Source of the DNA: Aeromicrobium marinum DSM 15272
GTDB lineage: Bacteria; Actinomycetota; Actinomycetes; Propionibacteriales; Nocardioidaceae
Direction: 5' to 3'
Assembly (NCBI RefSeq): GCF_000160775.2
Contig: NZ_CM001024.1
Span: 3,013,196 to 3,077,195, forward strand
Length of the DNA stretch: 64,000 nucleotides
Within the stretch, counting starts at the first letter, position 1. Each line of letters begins with the position of its first letter. This document shows positions 6,944-12,751 of this stretch, piece by piece. Position numbers and translations under genes: made by a program. Below the pieces are notes generated by a model. The model worked only from the letters and a program-made list of their open reading frames with translations, did not search any database and was not told the origin of the DNA.

Positions 6944-8644
6944 TCAGCTGCGGCCCGTGTCGGGACCGACCGTCAGCATGCCATCGGCGAGGTGGGCCAC
7001 CACGTCGGCCCTCGCGCGTTCCGCGGGCCGGTGCGTCACCAGCAGGACGGCGCGGGACCCGTCGAGGAGCTGACCCAGGACGCGCTCCTCGGTACCGGTG
7101 TCGAGGGCGCTGGTCGCCTCGTCGAGGACCAGCAGCTCGGGGTCCCGCACCAGTGCGCGGGCGATGCACAGCCGCTGCTGCTCGCCGCCGGACAGCCCGG
7201 CGATCTCCCGCAGGGGGGTGTCGAGACCGGCCGGCAGCGACTCCACCACCGTGTCGACGCAGGCGGTCCGCAACGCCGCCCAGAGGTCCTCGTCGGCCAC
7301 CTCGCGACCGGGCTGCAGCGACCAGGTGAGGTTCTGCCGGACCGTGCCGGGCACCAGCACGGTCTGCTGCGGCACGTAGCCGACCCGGGCCCGCCAGGAC
7401 GACAGGTCGACGAGGGGCGAGCCGTCGACCAGGACCTGCCCGGTCTCGGGCGGCACGAGTCCCAGGACCACGTCGAGCAGGGTGCTCTTGCCCCCGCCGC
7501 TGGGCCCCCAGACGGTCACGAGCCCGCGGTGGGGGACCTGCAGGTCGACGTCGTCCAGGACGGTCGGCCCGTCGGTGGCGTACCGCACCGTCACGCCGCG
7601 CAGCGCGACCAGGGGCTCCTGCGGCCCGGCGGGCTCCTGCGGTCGGCCCGGTACGGATCCGGTCTGGCGGTGCTGCTCGATCTCTCGCTCGAAGTCCGAG
7701 AGCTGGTCGAGGGCGGGCGCCTCGTTCGCGAACACCTGGACCGCTCCCAACAGGCCCTGGGCCGTCGCGAGGATGCGCGACGCGACGACGACGAGCACCG
7801 CGAGCTCCGCGAACGGGAGGCCGGCCTGTCGGCCCACCACCACCAGGACCATGACCGCGAAGACGACCCCGACCGCCAGCCCGGCCACGACCGCCGAGGT
7901 GCGTCGCACGAACGAGGTGCGGATCCCCCGGACACGGCTCGCCTCGGCCTCGACCAGGTCGGTCCACGCCCGTCCGGCATCGTGCGCCCGCGTCAGCCGG
8001 ACCGAGGCGAGGGAGTCCGTGACGGCGGCCCCGAGGTCGGCGACGCCCCGACTCATCTCCTGGCCGAGCCGGGTGGCGGACCGGACCGAACGCCTCGTGG
8101 CCGCCGTGGCGAGCAGCAGGCCGACGGCGGCGAGCCCGCCGATGAGCGGTGAGAGCAGGACGGCCACGCCGACGGTGGCGGCCAGGATCGGCACGGCGAC
8201 GAGGATGCGCAGGAGCATGACCAGGGCGGTCTGGGCGCGCTCGACCTCCGTGGTGAGCCGCTGGACGACGTGGCTGCGCCGCTGACCGGCGACGTACGTC
8301 CACTCGGCGGCGAGCAGGCCGTCGAACAGGCGCAGGCGCAGGGCGTCGACGGTCGCGAGGCGGATCTGCACGGACACCACCGCGACCCGCCACTGGGCGA
8401 GCGACCTGACCACGACCACCAGCAGCACCAGGGCGAAGGCGACCGGGAGGGTCAGGGTCGCGTCGGTCCCGGGCAGGCGGAGCTCGTCGTCCCCGCCGAG
8501 CGACTGCATGACCGGCACCAGCAAGGTCAGCCCCAGGCCCTCCATGAGGGCGACCACGACCTGCAGCGACAGGAGCCCGGCCACGGCACCCCGGCCCGCG
8601 GTCGACGACATGAGCGACAGGTACGCCCGGGACCGGGCCGTCAT
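6944..8644 (-). CDS. ABC exporter (fused membrane and ATPase domains) of the RiPP locus
   Basis: 566 aa half-transporter with permease and ATPase in one chain. Residues 1-310 are an ABC exporter membrane domain with about six hydrophobic segments. The ATPase has Walker A GPSGGGKST (380-388), signature LSGGEQQR (484-491), Walker B LLVLDEA (about 504-510) and the H-loop VTHRP. There is no N-terminal C39 peptidase domain, so it is not a leader-cleaving PCAT. The ATG at 8644 overlaps the stop of the upstream nucleotidyltransferase gene (ATGA), and both diverge from the precursor gene. Lasso-peptide D-type exporters have this architecture, so export of the RiPP product is the likely job. Substrate is inferred from context. 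Confidence 0.85.
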   Translation of the reverse strand: MTARSRAYLSLMSSTAGRGAVAGLLSLQVVVALMEGLGLTLLVPVMQSLGGDDELRLPGTDATLTLPVAFALVLLVVVVRSLAQWRVAVVSVQIRLATVDALRLRLFDGLLAAEWTYVAGQRRSHVVQRLTTEVERAQTALVMLLRILVAVPILAATVGVAVLLSPLIGGLAAVGLLLATAATRRSVRSATRLGQEMSRGVADLGAAVTDSLASVRLTRAHDAGRAWTDLVEAEASRVRGIRTSFVRRTSAVVAGLAVGVVFAVMVLVVVGRQAGLPFAELAVLVVVASRILATAQGLLGAVQVFANEAPALDQLSDFEREIEQHRQTGSVPGRPQEPAGPQEPLVALRGVTVRYATDGPTVLDDVDLQVPHRGLVTVWGPSGGGKSTLLDVVLGLVPPETGQVLVDGSPLVDLSSWRARVGYVPQQTVLVPGTVRQNLTWSLQPGREVADEDLWAALRTACVDTVVESLPAGLDTPLREIAGLSGGEQQRLCIARALVRDPELLVLDEATSALDTGTEERVLGQLLDGSRAVLLVTHRPAERARADVVAHLADGMLTVGPDTGRS

Positions 8645-9786
8645 CGGGCCCGGCCCGGGAGGCACCGGGCCACCAGGTGCCTGGCGCGGCGCCACAGTGC
8701 TCGGGGAAGCGCGGTGCGCACCGACCAGTCGGGCAGTCCGGCCACCATGGTCAGGGGGACCACGACGGCGGTCGCGGTGTGGCGGAGGTCGGCGGCGCTG
8801 CGACTGGCCGTCAGGCGGTGGCGGGTCAGCCGGGCCAGCTCCACGCCCGGGGCCGAACCGCTGCCGCTGGCGGGCCGGTCCTGCGCCGCGAGCGACCGGG
8901 ACGCCACGCGGGCGGGCACCCGCCCGACCAGCTCCACGACGGCGGCCGGGACCTGCGCGGGCAGCCCCAGCGCCTCGTCGGTGGCGCGGAGCGTGGTCAG
9001 CTCGACGCGACCGGGGCGGTGTCGCGCCCAGGTCGGCTCGAGGCGGGCCAGCCGGTGCACGTCGACCAGGCTCCGGAGCCAGCGGTGGCCGTCCTTGGCG
9101 GCGTGGTGGCAGCTGTGCCGAAAGGCCAGGTCGACCGCGACGGTGTCGACCGCGAGACCGCCGACGTCGACCTGCACGCGCCCGGCCCACGCCTCGTCGA
9201 AGGTCGGGAGCCCGTCGTGGGTCGCGTCGAGGCGCCAGTGCAGATCGATGGTGCTGGCGCGGCCGTCCAACGTCACCTCGTACCCGGCGGACAACAGGTG
9301 TCGCCAGGCCCAGGAGCCGGGCACGATCGCCGGGGGTCGGGGTGTCCAGCCGTGGTCGAGCAGCAGGGCGACGGTCCGGGCCACGGACTCGGGCGCGACC
9401 CACACGTCCAGGTCACCGGCGCCCCGGCCACCCGGGTCGCCGGTGGTCTGGACGGCCAGGGCCGGTCCCTTGACCAGCAGCCAGGGGATGTCGGCCGCGT
9501 CGAGTGCCGCGGCCACCCGGTGCAGCTCGAGCAGGCGCACGCCCAGCACCCTCGCGGTGCGCCGGTGTGCCTCGTCGAGTGCCTCGAGCACCGGCGACGG
9601 CAGGCCCAGGGTCGCGCCGTGCGGCCGGAGCACCTCGGCGACCCGGTGGCGGGTGATGGCCGCGAGCAGGTCCCTCGTCGGATCGTGGGTCCCGACCGCC
9701 CCTCGCGGGTCCCCACCCGCCTCGACCGCCAGCGCCGCGCGCGTCCACGCGCGGACGGTCCGGCTGGCCTGGGGGCTGGGGTGCAC
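8641..9786 (-). CDS. Nucleotidyltransferase-family protein (NTP_transf_5 type) of the RiPP locus
   Basis: About 381 aa from a GTG at 9786; there is no strong ribosome site, so the start may be internal. The family signature is clear: a Lys-Gly (LLVKGPAL, Lys106) followed by GDLDVWV (124-130), where Asp125 and Asp127 would bind the metal of a polymerase-beta-like nucleotidyl or glycosyl transferase. Related proteins are found in lasso-peptide clusters of the paeninodin/pseudomycoidin kind. There, an HPr-kinase-like enzyme phosphorylates the C-terminal Ser, and in pseudomycoidin the nucleotidyltransferase homologue adds hexose to that phosphate. It is co-transcribed with the exporter and diverges from the precursor gene. 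Function here is inferred. Confidence 0.8.
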   Translation of the reverse strand: MHPSPQASRTVRAWTRAALAVEAGGDPRGAVGTHDPTRDLLAAITRHRVAEVLRPHGATLGLPSPVLEALDEAHRRTARVLGVRLLELHRVAAALDAADIPWLLVKGPALAVQTTGDPGGRGAGDLDVWVAPESVARTVALLLDHGWTPRPPAIVPGSWAWRHLLSAGYEVTLDGRASTIDLHWRLDATHDGLPTFDEAWAGRVQVDVGGLAVDTVAVDLAFRHSCHHAAKDGHRWLRSLVDVHRLARLEPTWARHRPGRVELTTLRATDEALGLPAQVPAAVVELVGRVPARVASRSLAAQDRPASGSGSAPGVELARLTRHRLTASRSAADLRHTATAVVVPLTMVAGLPDWSVRTALPRALWRRARHLVARCLPGRAR

Positions 9787-9922
9787 GCCGACAGCGTACG
9801 CAGCCCCGCGGGTGTCGACCCGGTGAACCGGTGGGCCCGCGTGCCGGTGTTTCAGCAGGATTTCACGGTGACGGACGTAACCCGTCGCCCTCCGGCGTCG
9901 TTCTAACGGGCAACACCCACCC

Positions 9923-9928
9923 GGAGGA
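9923..9928 (+). promoter_or_regulatory. Ribosome binding site fixing the RiPP precursor start
   Basis: GGAGGA sits 7 nt before the ATG at 9936. This strong site picks the 37-aa precursor over an in-frame upstream start at 9831 that would add 35 residues with no leader-like features. Confidence 0.8.
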
Positions 9929-9935
9929 GAACCGA

Positions 9936-10049
9936 ATGGAATCCACCACTCGCACGGCCTACACCGCCCCGGTACTGGAGACGCTCGACATCGCGGAGAC
10001 CCGCGGCGTCGGCATCGACATCGGTATCGGCATCGGTATCGGCAGCTGA
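9936..10049 (+). CDS. RiPP precursor peptide, lasso-type leader with Gly-Ile core
   Basis: 37 aa. The leader (about 1-23) contains Y9-x-x-P12-x-L14 and a Thr22 at the penultimate leader position, the recognition features of lasso-peptide precursors bound by the PqqD-like B1 protein. The predicted core after Arg23 is GVGIDIGIGIGIGS, an alternating Gly-Ile track ending in Ser37. Classical lasso peptides need an Asp/Glu at core position 7, 8 or 9 to close the ring, but here the only acidic residue is Asp at core position 5. No macrolactam synthetase gene is nearby. Downstream genes encode the leader peptidase, a kinase and the RRE protein in the same orientation. The peptide is therefore RiPP-like by leader and context, with an unknown modification. 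Confidence 0.85.
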   Translation: MESTTRTAYTAPVLETLDIAETRGVGIDIGIGIGIGS

Positions 10050-10099
10050 TGGGTCCCGGTTGCCGGGCGGTGCGGTCCATCGACCTCCGGGGGTAGTCA

Positions 10100-10624
10100 G
10101 TGGAGCACGGCCCGGCGACCGGGTTTCGGGTGAGGCGCGTCCGGTCGGCCCTGGTCGCCGGACCGCTCGCGGTCGTGGCATGGGTCCTGCTCGCCCTCGC
10201 GCGGGTGGCCATCGCGCTGCTGCCGTTCGGCTTGGTCCGCCGACTGCTCGGTGAGGACGGCCTGGGCGACGACGGGGGCGGGGCTCCGTCGACGGCGAGA
10301 CCGGAACGGGCCCGGCGAGTCGCCGGGGCGATCGCGCGGGCCGTGAGGTCCAGTCCGTGGCGTGCCGACTGCTACCCGCAGGCGATCGCCGCCCGACTGA
10401 TGCTGGTCCCGGCGCGTGTCCCCCACACCCTGGTGTTCGGGGTGCGCAGAGACACCGCCGGTGCCCTGCTGGCCCACGTGTGGGTCGAGGCGGGGGACGT
10501 GAGGGTCGCCGGTGGCCGCGGGGCCGGCTTCGTCCCGGTCGGGTCGTTCTCGTGGGTCCCGGGTCGCGCGGGGAGGAGGTCGCCCCGTGCCGATGTACAG
10601 CTGCTTCGGGATCACGGTCGATAG
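10100..10624 (+). CDS. Lasso-type leader peptidase B2 (transglutaminase-like Cys protease)
   Basis: 174 aa from a GTG at 10100 preceded by a G-rich ribosome site. A hydrophobic stretch lies near 15-45. The family's catalytic triad is visible: Cys91 in DCYPQAIAARL, His126 in LLAHVWVE and Asp133 in EAGDVRV. Spacing matches lasso B2 proteins, which cut the leader after its conserved Thr-x pair with help from the PqqD-like B1 protein encoded at 11504. It lies 50 nt after the precursor and overlaps the next gene. In full lasso clusters an asparagine-synthetase-like cyclase would accompany it, and none is present. Confidence 0.88.
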   Translation: MEHGPATGFRVRRVRSALVAGPLAVVAWVLLALARVAIALLPFGLVRRLLGEDGLGDDGGGAPSTARPERARRVAGAIARAVRSSPWRADCYPQAIAARLMLVPARVPHTLVFGVRRDTAGALLAHVWVEAGDVRVAGGRGAGFVPVGSFSWVPGRAGRRSPRADVQLLRDHGR

Positions 10625-11507
10625 CTCGATCCCGTTGCCCGACCTCGAGGGGGCCGGACCGGGGGCCACGGCGGACGTGACCGTCCGCGAGCGTCCGGTG
10701 GAGGCCCGGCCTGCTGCTGCCGTCCGGGCGGTCCCCGGGTTGTGGTGGCACCGCGGCGAGGTGTGGCTGGAGGCGCCGGGCACCGGCCGGTTCGTGGCGA
10801 GGGACGGGTCGACGGTCGTGGTGGAGCGCGAGCCCGGGGTGTCCGACGGCGACGTGCGCATTTTCGTGCTGGGCACGATGTTGGGCGCGATCCTGCGGCA
10901 GCGCGGCCACCTGGTGCTGCACGGCAACGCCTTCGACTGCGGTGCGTCGGCGGCGATCGTGGTCGGCCACTCCGGTGCCGGCAAGTCGACGCTGGCCGCC
11001 GAGCTCGACCGTCGCGGCCTGCCGGTGCTGTCCGACGACGTCGTACCGATCGACGCGGCCGGTGTCGCGGCGCCGGGCTATCCCCGCATCAAGCTGTGGG
11101 CCGACGCGCTGCAGGACCTGGGTCTGGACACGGCGGGGTTCGAGCGCATCACCGACGGGCACGACAAGTTCCACGTCCCGTTGTCACGGAGCGGGATCGC
11201 GCCGCTCGCGGCAGAATTCGTCTATGTGCTCGAGACCCACGACCGGCCGTCCCTGGAGCTGTCCGAGGTGACCGGCATGGCCGCCTACGAGGCGCTCCGG
11301 ACCCACACGTACCGCGGTGAGCTGCTGGTCGACCCGGCGGACGAGTGGCAGCACCTCCGGCAGTGCGCCGACCTGGCCGCCCGGGCCCGCATCGTGCGGG
11401 TCGTCCGGCCGGCCGCCACGATGACCGCCGCCGCCACGGCCGATGCGATCCTGGCCGACATCGCGGGCACCCGCGGTCTGCGGACCCCCGAGGACGTCCG
11501 GCGATGA
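10587..11507 (+). CDS. HPr-kinase/phosphorylase-like protein of the RiPP locus
   Basis: 306 aa from the GTG at 10587, chosen because GGAGG lies 7 nt upstream; an ATG two codons later is possible. Walker A is GHSGAGKST (127-135), followed by LPVLSDDVVPI, the acidic HprK-like motif. No HPr substrate gene is nearby. Homologues in lasso-peptide clusters (paeninodin type) phosphorylate the side chain of the C-terminal Ser of the precursor. The precursor here ends in Ser37, which would suit this. The gene overlaps the B2 gene by 38 nt and the PqqD-like gene by 4 nt, so it is translationally coupled to both. Confidence 0.85.
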   Translation: MPMYSCFGITVDSSIPLPDLEGAGPGATADVTVRERPVEARPAAAVRAVPGLWWHRGEVWLEAPGTGRFVARDGSTVVVEREPGVSDGDVRIFVLGTMLGAILRQRGHLVLHGNAFDCGASAAIVVGHSGAGKSTLAAELDRRGLPVLSDDVVPIDAAGVAAPGYPRIKLWADALQDLGLDTAGFERITDGHDKFHVPLSRSGIAPLAAEFVYVLETHDRPSLELSEVTGMAAYEALRTHTYRGELLVDPADEWQHLRQCADLAARARIVRVVRPAATMTAAATADAILADIAGTRGLRTPEDVRR

Positions 11508-11785
11508 CCCGGGTCGATCCCGCCGTGGCCTACGCCCGGCGGGCCGGCGTCAACGCCGTCGACATGGACGGTGAGCTGGTGATGATGGGCCTGGAGCAGG
11601 GGGAGTACTACGGCCTGCGGGGGACCGCTGCCAGCATCTGGGGCTACCTCGAGCAGGCGTCGGACGTCCAGACCCTGGCGTCCAGACTGGCCGAGGAGTA
11701 CGACGTGGAGGTCGACCGGTGCCGGCCCGACGTCGTCCGGTTCCTGGACGACCTGCTCCGCCGCGGCCTGGTCGAGCCGGCCTGA
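11504..11785 (+). CDS. PqqD-like RRE protein (lasso B1 type)
   Basis: 93 aa, a stand-alone RiPP recognition element. The sequence fits the PqqD fold: an N-terminal beta hairpin region (VDMDGELVMMGLEQGEYYGL), then helices (IWGYLEQASDVQTLASRLAEEY and DVVRFLDDLLRRGLVEP). Such proteins bind the YxxPxL leader motif and deliver the precursor to the B2 protease. The ATG at 11504 overlaps the kinase stop. It is the last gene of the precursor operon; 16 nt later begins the convergent SCO6745-like gene. Confidence 0.88.
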   Translation: MTRVDPAVAYARRAGVNAVDMDGELVMMGLEQGEYYGLRGTAASIWGYLEQASDVQTLASRLAEEYDVEVDRCRPDVVRFLDDLLRRGLVEPA

Positions 11786-12605: not shown

Positions 12606-12657
12606 CGCCCCAGTCTGCCCTGCCCACCGATCCCCGCCACCGCCCCACCACGTCGCA

Positions 12658-12743
12658 GTTTCCCAGGAAATCCCAGAAAACTGACACCTCACCCCTGTTG
12701 CAACCTGTCAACGGTGACAGTTTTCTGGGATTTCCTGGGAAAC
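12658..12743. repeat. Inverted repeat with perfect 26-nt arms between two minus-strand genes
   Basis: The left arm at 12658-12683 (GTTTCCCAGGAAATCCCAG...) is the exact reverse complement of 12718-12743, with a 34-nt loop. Each arm is itself a near-tandem repeat of TTTC(C)TGGGA. The loop holds a smaller hairpin, CTGTCA (12705-12710) with TGACAG (12715-12720). It lies 8 nt after the DUF2461 stop and 52 nt before the SCO6745-like start. There is no U-tract, so it is an unusual terminator if it is one. A mobile intergenic palindrome or operator is equally possible. Confidence 0.85.
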
Positions 12744-12751
12744 CTCAGGGG

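Follow-up and report, generated by a model that had tools for sequence, protein, structure and literature searches.

A lasso-type RiPP locus without a macrolactam cyclase in Aeromicrobium marinum and other Nocardioidaceae, and its probable linear, C-terminally phosphorylated product

The 64,000-nucleotide stretch of Aeromicrobium marinum DSM 15272 DNA analyzed here (the window) contains, at positions 6944 to 11785, a gene set for a ribosomally synthesized and post-translationally modified peptide (RiPP). It comprises a short precursor, a B2-type cysteine leader peptidase, a PqqD-type RiPP recognition element (RRE), an HprK-like kinase, a nucleotidyltransferase-like protein (NTase) and an ABC exporter. 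We conclude that the locus probably produces a linear, C-terminally phosphorylated RiPP through a lasso-type pathway from which the cyclase has disappeared. The initial annotation of this DNA had proposed a leader-cleaved, tailored, non-lasso peptide, and this proposal is supported by related loci, all 31 of which are cyclase-free, and by the 11 of 25 distinct cores that have no ring acid. The most informative feature, overlooked in that annotation, is the invariant C-terminal Ser of the precursor, which is the phosphorylation site in paeninodin-type peptides.

Absence of a cyclase and layout of the locus

A search of 342 genomes of the family finds the kinase (~50% identity, E below 1e-70) in three genera, with 31 genomes carrying it, the source genome included. 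A class-wide sample of 395 genomes adds just one further match, which is weak and lies outside the family. Named carriers include Nocardioides sp. Root682, Pimelobacter simplex 3E and Marmoricola metagenome-assembled genomes (MAGs), and the family is therefore Nocardioidaceae. Kinase, RRE, NTase, B2 and precursor are present in all 31 loci, so that a chance assembly of this five-gene set is excluded. In the divergent locus L067, B2 and precursor are encoded on the strand opposite the kinase and were located by profile and pattern only.

None of the 31 loci contains a cyclase, which answers the question that the initial annotation had posed for related genomes. The complete, single-contig source genome (3,079,740 bp, 99.99% complete) yields zero matches to PF00733, the family of asparagine-synthetase-like cyclases, in a search that was positive in 11 of 14 control genomes. 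The gap first noticed in the locus thus extends to the whole genome, and the idea that a distant enzyme cyclizes the core finds no PF00733 candidate there. A PF00733 homolog is absent genome-wide from 25 of the 31 genomes carrying the set, the source among them. In the remaining six, four matches are short and weak, one (G106) is an AsnB-like gene adjoining glycosyltransferase-like genes, and one (G265) is a lasso-type cyclase from a second cluster, which lies on a different contig and has an RRE and a kinase of its own. A trans-acting cyclase was rejected on the basis of these whole-genome PF00733 searches.

The features of the source locus are as follows.

9936..10049 (+): precursor peptide gene (37 aa), from open reading frame and precursor alignment
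9923..9929 (+): Shine-Dalgarno sequence GGAGGAG of the precursor gene, read directly, just 5′ of the ATG
9936..10004 (+): leader peptide MESTTRTAYTAPVLETLDIAETR, with the YxxPxL RRE-binding motif and Thr at −2
10005..10046 (+): core peptide GVGIDIGIGIGIGS, with alternating aliphatic residues, no Asp/Glu at positions 7-9 and a C-terminal Ser
10100..10624 (+): B2-type cysteine leader peptidase (NF033537, 77.9 bits against a cut-off of 33; PF13471, 1e-17)
10587..11507 (+): HprK-like kinase with an intact His112-Lys133-Asp150-Asp151 active-site set
11504..11785 (+): PqqD-type discrete RRE, or B1 protein (PF05402, 6e-20)
8641..9786 (−): NTP_transf_5 nucleotidyltransferase-like protein, the NTase (PF14907, 1.4e-33)
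6944..8644 (−): MsbA-type ABC exporter (ABC_tran, 3e-29)

The full precursor product is leader MESTTRTAYTAPVLETLDIAETR joined to core GVGIDIGIGIGIGS, the start of the core being placed by the Thr(−2) rule. B2, kinase and RRE lie 3′ of the precursor on the same strand as successive, overlapping genes. NTase and exporter occupy the opposite strand, where the start codon of the exporter and the stop codon of the NTase overlap in ATGA. The exporter had been counted as part of the locus and is indeed present, but at 6944-8644 it falls outside the interval that the initial annotation had delimited. The B2 gene is the only one in the genome. The flanking genes, which are cobalamin-like on one hand and a SCO6745-family gene on the other, are not part of the set.

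Precursors and enzymes of the family

We aligned 30 precursors, which represent 25 distinct cores. The YxxPxL leader with Thr at the penultimate position, as first read in the source precursor, is common to all 30, as are the C-terminal Ser and a GGAG-type ribosome-binding site 5′ of the gene. Cores range from 14 residues, the length in the source locus, to 30, with DIDIDIDITLGLGS, DLGIGIHIGIGLGS, DIDLGLGIHIPFPPLGS and DIEVDLDAEVDPVVDADVDVDIDLGLGS as examples. Hydrophobic and other residues alternate at 86% of core steps, compared with a shuffled mean of 52% and a maximum of 61% in 2000 shuffles. The precursor of L067, the earliest-branching member (9038-9181, −), is non-alternating and ends in GRPYAAPHLIRLDARATLSLPTPAADDIYVS. 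Of the 30 aligned cores, 23 begin with Asp, 6 with Gly and 1 with Glu. The source core has no Asp/Glu at positions 7-9, as had been noted at the outset, and neither do 11 of the 25 distinct cores; a ring acid conserved among relatives, which would speak against a non-lasso product, was accordingly not found. Where Asp7 is present, it usually belongs to a run of Asp residues at 1, 3, 5 and 7. Purifying selection acts on the leaders (pN/pS 0.53); the value for the cores, 0.94, carries no information given their strong codon bias and short length. An RTX-type calcium-binding repeat (GGxGxDxUx) was considered for the segment GVGIDIGIG and rejected by eye, as its hydrophobic position is occupied by Gly.

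The enzymes are similarly well preserved. All 31 kinases share His112, Lys133, Asp150 and Asp151, and kinases from cyclase-bearing clusters have identical residues at the aligned positions; a His-Lys-Asp-Asp set is reported to be essential in lasso-tailoring kinases (PMC9266682). The kinase profile matches the HPr kinases 1ko7/1jb1 in the PDB, with scores against the Hpr_kinase_C and HprK models of ~1e-4 to 1e-6, under the curated cut-offs. Family searches thus bear out all of the original assignments, that of the kinase at sub-cut-off scores only. For the RRE, the best PDB profile match is PbaB1 (9x90, 60 bits), followed by TbiB1, LppB and TfuB1. In LppB, Asp70 forms a hydrogen bond with the leader Tyr (PMC13381572); an invariant pocket Asp of the Nocardioidaceae RREs aligns with this residue, consistent with the Tyr found in every Nocardioidaceae leader. 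The NTase has a GDxD motif that is invariant across the aligned loci, and its AlphaFold model (pLDDT 92.5) matches nucleotidyltransferase folds such as those of LnuA and ANT(2″)-Ia and, weakly, that of FKRP (E 0.04). These matches are of a general nature, to nucleotidyltransferases that modify hydroxyls or phosphates, and not to acyl-adenylating ligases. Taken over the aligned loci, the invariant residues of kinase, B2, NTase and RRE indicate that the set is under selection.

For B2, a Cys91/His126/Asp133 triad had been proposed. Cys91 and His126 are invariant across the family, but Asp133 varies and is likewise missing from paeninodin-type B2s of cyclase-bearing clusters, which have V-[ST]-G-x in that region; for these two reasons Asp133 should not be called catalytic. 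A loss of B2 activity through the variable Asp133 was considered and dropped, since the B2s of cyclase-bearing paeninodin clusters share V-[ST]-G-x.

Proposed pathway, known systems and competing explanations

We infer each chemical step from characterized relatives. The RRE would bind the YxxPxL motif of the leader and deliver the precursor. The kinase would phosphorylate, and perhaps polyphosphorylate, the single C-terminal Ser. PadeK, ThcoK and PsmK act on a C-terminal Ser, and the phospho-Ser receives hexoses from PsmN (PMC9266682). The NTase would then attach a sugar-, nucleotide- or polyol-phosphate-like moiety to the phosphate. B2 is predicted to cut one residue past Thr(−2), which would release an alternating, strand-prone peptide of 14 residues (14-30 in relatives), and in the source genus the ABC protein presumably exports it. 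A cyclase-less set of HprK, NTase and RRE has been found experimentally to yield a linear phosphopeptide in the linear polyphosphorylated peptide (LPP) system of Bacillota (PMC13381572). We also entertain, tentatively, the idea that the products form a RiPP class of their own in Nocardioidaceae, with anionic or glycine-rich two-residue repeats of polar and aliphatic residues forming a strand and a terminal Ser that bears a phosphate-linked sugar or polyol-phosphate.

Several points weigh against a linear phosphopeptide made in this way. The NTase had no detectable effect in the LPP expression test (PMC13381572), and the Nocardioides loci (genus g25) have no adjacent exporter. Only two of the three catalytic residues of B2 can be assigned, Cys91 and His126; a fold search of the PDB with the B2 model stayed below the E<0.001 threshold throughout, and its best hits were papain/transglutaminase-like (LapG, vasohibin). 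Finally, Asp/Glu occupies at least one of positions 7-9 in 19 of the 30 cores.

This last observation also favors the best-surviving alternative, namely a product that is still a lasso or another macrolactam, closed by a trans-acting cyclase or by an unrecognized enzyme, for example an NTase that activates the Asp side chain. Precursor, B2 and RRE are all of lasso type, and G265 does possess a lasso cyclase in its other cluster. We nevertheless regard ring closure as improbable: most of the genomes, the source included, lack any PF00733 protein, 11 of the 25 distinct cores have neither Asp nor Glu at 7-9, and the first core residue is mostly Asp instead of the usual Gly. The predicted NTase fold is unlike that of acyl-adenylating ligases, and no additional gene is kept across the three genera that might supply the missing activity.

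The LPP family (Popov et al., Nat Commun, May 2026, PMC13381572), whose product in B. subtilis is a linear peptide with 1-4 phosphates, is the nearest functional analog. Both systems have a discrete RRE, an HprK-like kinase, an NTP transferase, an MsbA-type exporter and a YxxP leader, and both lack a macrolactam cyclase. Even so, the locus is quite unlikely to belong to the LPP family proper. LPP uses a signal-peptidase-I-like (SpI) protease, while the Nocardioidaceae set retains B2 and has no such protease in the locus; SpI homologs do occur in genomes with the set, but far off (0.99 Mb versus 3.02 Mb in the source genome, ~2 Mb apart by coordinates). The LPP leader reads YxxPxVLxHQxIxFETxxS, and that of Nocardioidaceae YxxPxL(E/D)xLxxxxTx, without the HQxIxFETxxS part. 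LPP phosphorylates Ser3, which occurs in none of the aligned cores, where it is the terminal Ser that is invariant and the core that alternates; a residue other than that of LPP must therefore receive the phosphate. LPP has been placed in Bacillota only (PMC13381572). Thus the Nocardioidaceae set would work like LPP yet does not qualify as an LPP, sharing the cyclase-less gene set and lacking the SpI-like peptidase, the leader motif and Ser3. It is lasso-derived, with leader/RRE and B2 present, yet fails as a lasso system for want of a PF00733 cyclase and of Asp/Glu at 7-9.

A further alternative, which we consider very unlikely, accepts a linear product and directs kinase and NTase to something other than the terminal Ser, for example a different Ser/Thr of the precursor, be it in core or leader, or a polymer of the cell surface. 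BsfK and LppK indeed phosphorylate Ser3 and not the C-terminus (PMC10368454, PMC13381572), and Thr9 is present in ten Nocardioides cores. The terminal Ser, however, is the sole Ser/Thr/Tyr common to every core. Least credible of all is a decaying lasso cluster that makes no product, since despite the missing cyclase, and the lack of an adjacent exporter in some genomes, ~30 species (roughly 35-55% identity) keep undamaged genes with invariant active sites, the leaders show purifying selection and cores retain both the alternating pattern and the terminal Ser.

Among lasso systems, paeninodin-type clusters (paeninodin, pseudomycoidin; PMC9266682) are the closest. They share B2, RRE, an HprK-like kinase with His-Lys-Asp-Asp, NTP_transf_5 and an exporter, a [Y/W]xxPxLExLxVxxT leader and a C-terminal Ser, and the RRE profile is nearest to PbaB1. 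They differ in having a cyclase and a ring acid. Judged by sequence, the kinase motif and C-terminal Ser would place the Nocardioidaceae set with them; the precursors, on the other hand, stay under the NF033524 cut-off of 27 bits (15.9 in the source, 21.0 for the best relative tested). Bsf-type phosphorylated lassos (PMC10368454) have the same kinase, NTase, RRE and B2, but differ in their cyclase, phosphorylated Ser3 and Ile/Val at −2. Two other species of the source genus have cyclase-bearing lasso clusters with an HprK-like kinase (L008:7485-7616, L009:7947-8078), whose precursors, with Val at −2 and the core GKSG(I/L)GLDGSSGK(I/V)GKK, resemble the Bsf-type Ser3-phosphorylated lasso.

In the HPr-rel-A system (TIGR04352/TIGR04353), an HprK-related kinase adjoins a PqqD-like protein. 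The proteins described here differ from it, with 28.4 bits for the kinase against a TIGR04352 cut-off of 200 and 22.2 bits for the RRE against a TIGR04353 cut-off of 35. A literature search with little coverage of subscription papers found no description of a cyclase-less lasso-type pathway or of the Nocardioidaceae family. The initial suggestion of an undescribed class needs qualifying, since a cyclase-less HprK/NTase/RRE kind is known from the LPP of Bacillota (PMC13381572); the class is therefore not wholly undescribed.

Evolutionary history and genomic neighborhood

In a maximum-likelihood tree, the 31 Nocardioidaceae kinases form one clade (support 100/99). Its neighbors are proteobacterial kinases, several of them from cyclase-bearing loci (L084, L117, L118), and Bacillota paeninodin-type kinases lie further out. 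A single clade beside lasso-cluster kinases suggests that the cyclase was probably lost once; on the simplest reading of the tree, whose root is not fixed, the loss occurred in the common ancestor of the Nocardioidaceae loci. Two proteobacterial loci also encode Ser-ending precursors with no cyclase seen nearby, L085 (8904-9053, core KPPKDQCDGDHDGADDLLCS) and L086 (911-1048, putative core ~LKGMSQVNIS without any acid). They are possibly a second cyclase-less lineage, and because they lie on short or incomplete MAG contigs we treat them as a lead only.

If the proposed pathway is correct, lasso pathways have lost ring closure a second time, outside Bacillota, with the original B2 protease kept, and selection maintains phosphorylation and capping of the terminal Ser, not the knot. 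The compact five-gene set in named Nocardioides and Pimelobacter strains makes the tailoring role of HprK and NTase testable without a lasso fold. The set will escape genome-mining tools that recognize lasso clusters by their cyclase.

In two of the genera, g1 and g22, the exporter gene is next to that of the NTase, L067 being the exception. In g25, the genus of Nocardioides sp. Root682, an mshA-like gene with an SDR gene usually flanks the set on one side and a typA-like gene on the other. If the products do form a RiPP class of their own, inheritance at such a fixed chromosomal site, together with the lack of an adjacent exporter in Nocardioides, would suggest a cell-envelope or intracellular role and not that of an antibiotic. 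In 12 g25 loci (L054:9076-9765 and 11 others), a gene judged by eye to be Asp/Glu-racemase-like adjoins the set convergently, and the cores of these loci are mostly Asp-rich; the adjacency may merely reflect synteny shared with the typA-like gene. L007, the sole other species of the source genus that carries the set, has a CDP-glycerol glycerophosphotransferase-like gene (by eye) directly 3′ of it (L007:6104-7465).

Elsewhere in the window, positions 12654-12750 hold a near-perfect inverted repeat between two genes, with ~27-base arms and a predicted RNA fold of −59.6 kcal/mol (z −7.7). It has ~17 dispersed genome copies at 77-100% identity, and is therefore a palindromic repeat element of the kind represented by repetitive extragenic palindromes (REP) and miniature inverted-repeat transposable elements (MITE).

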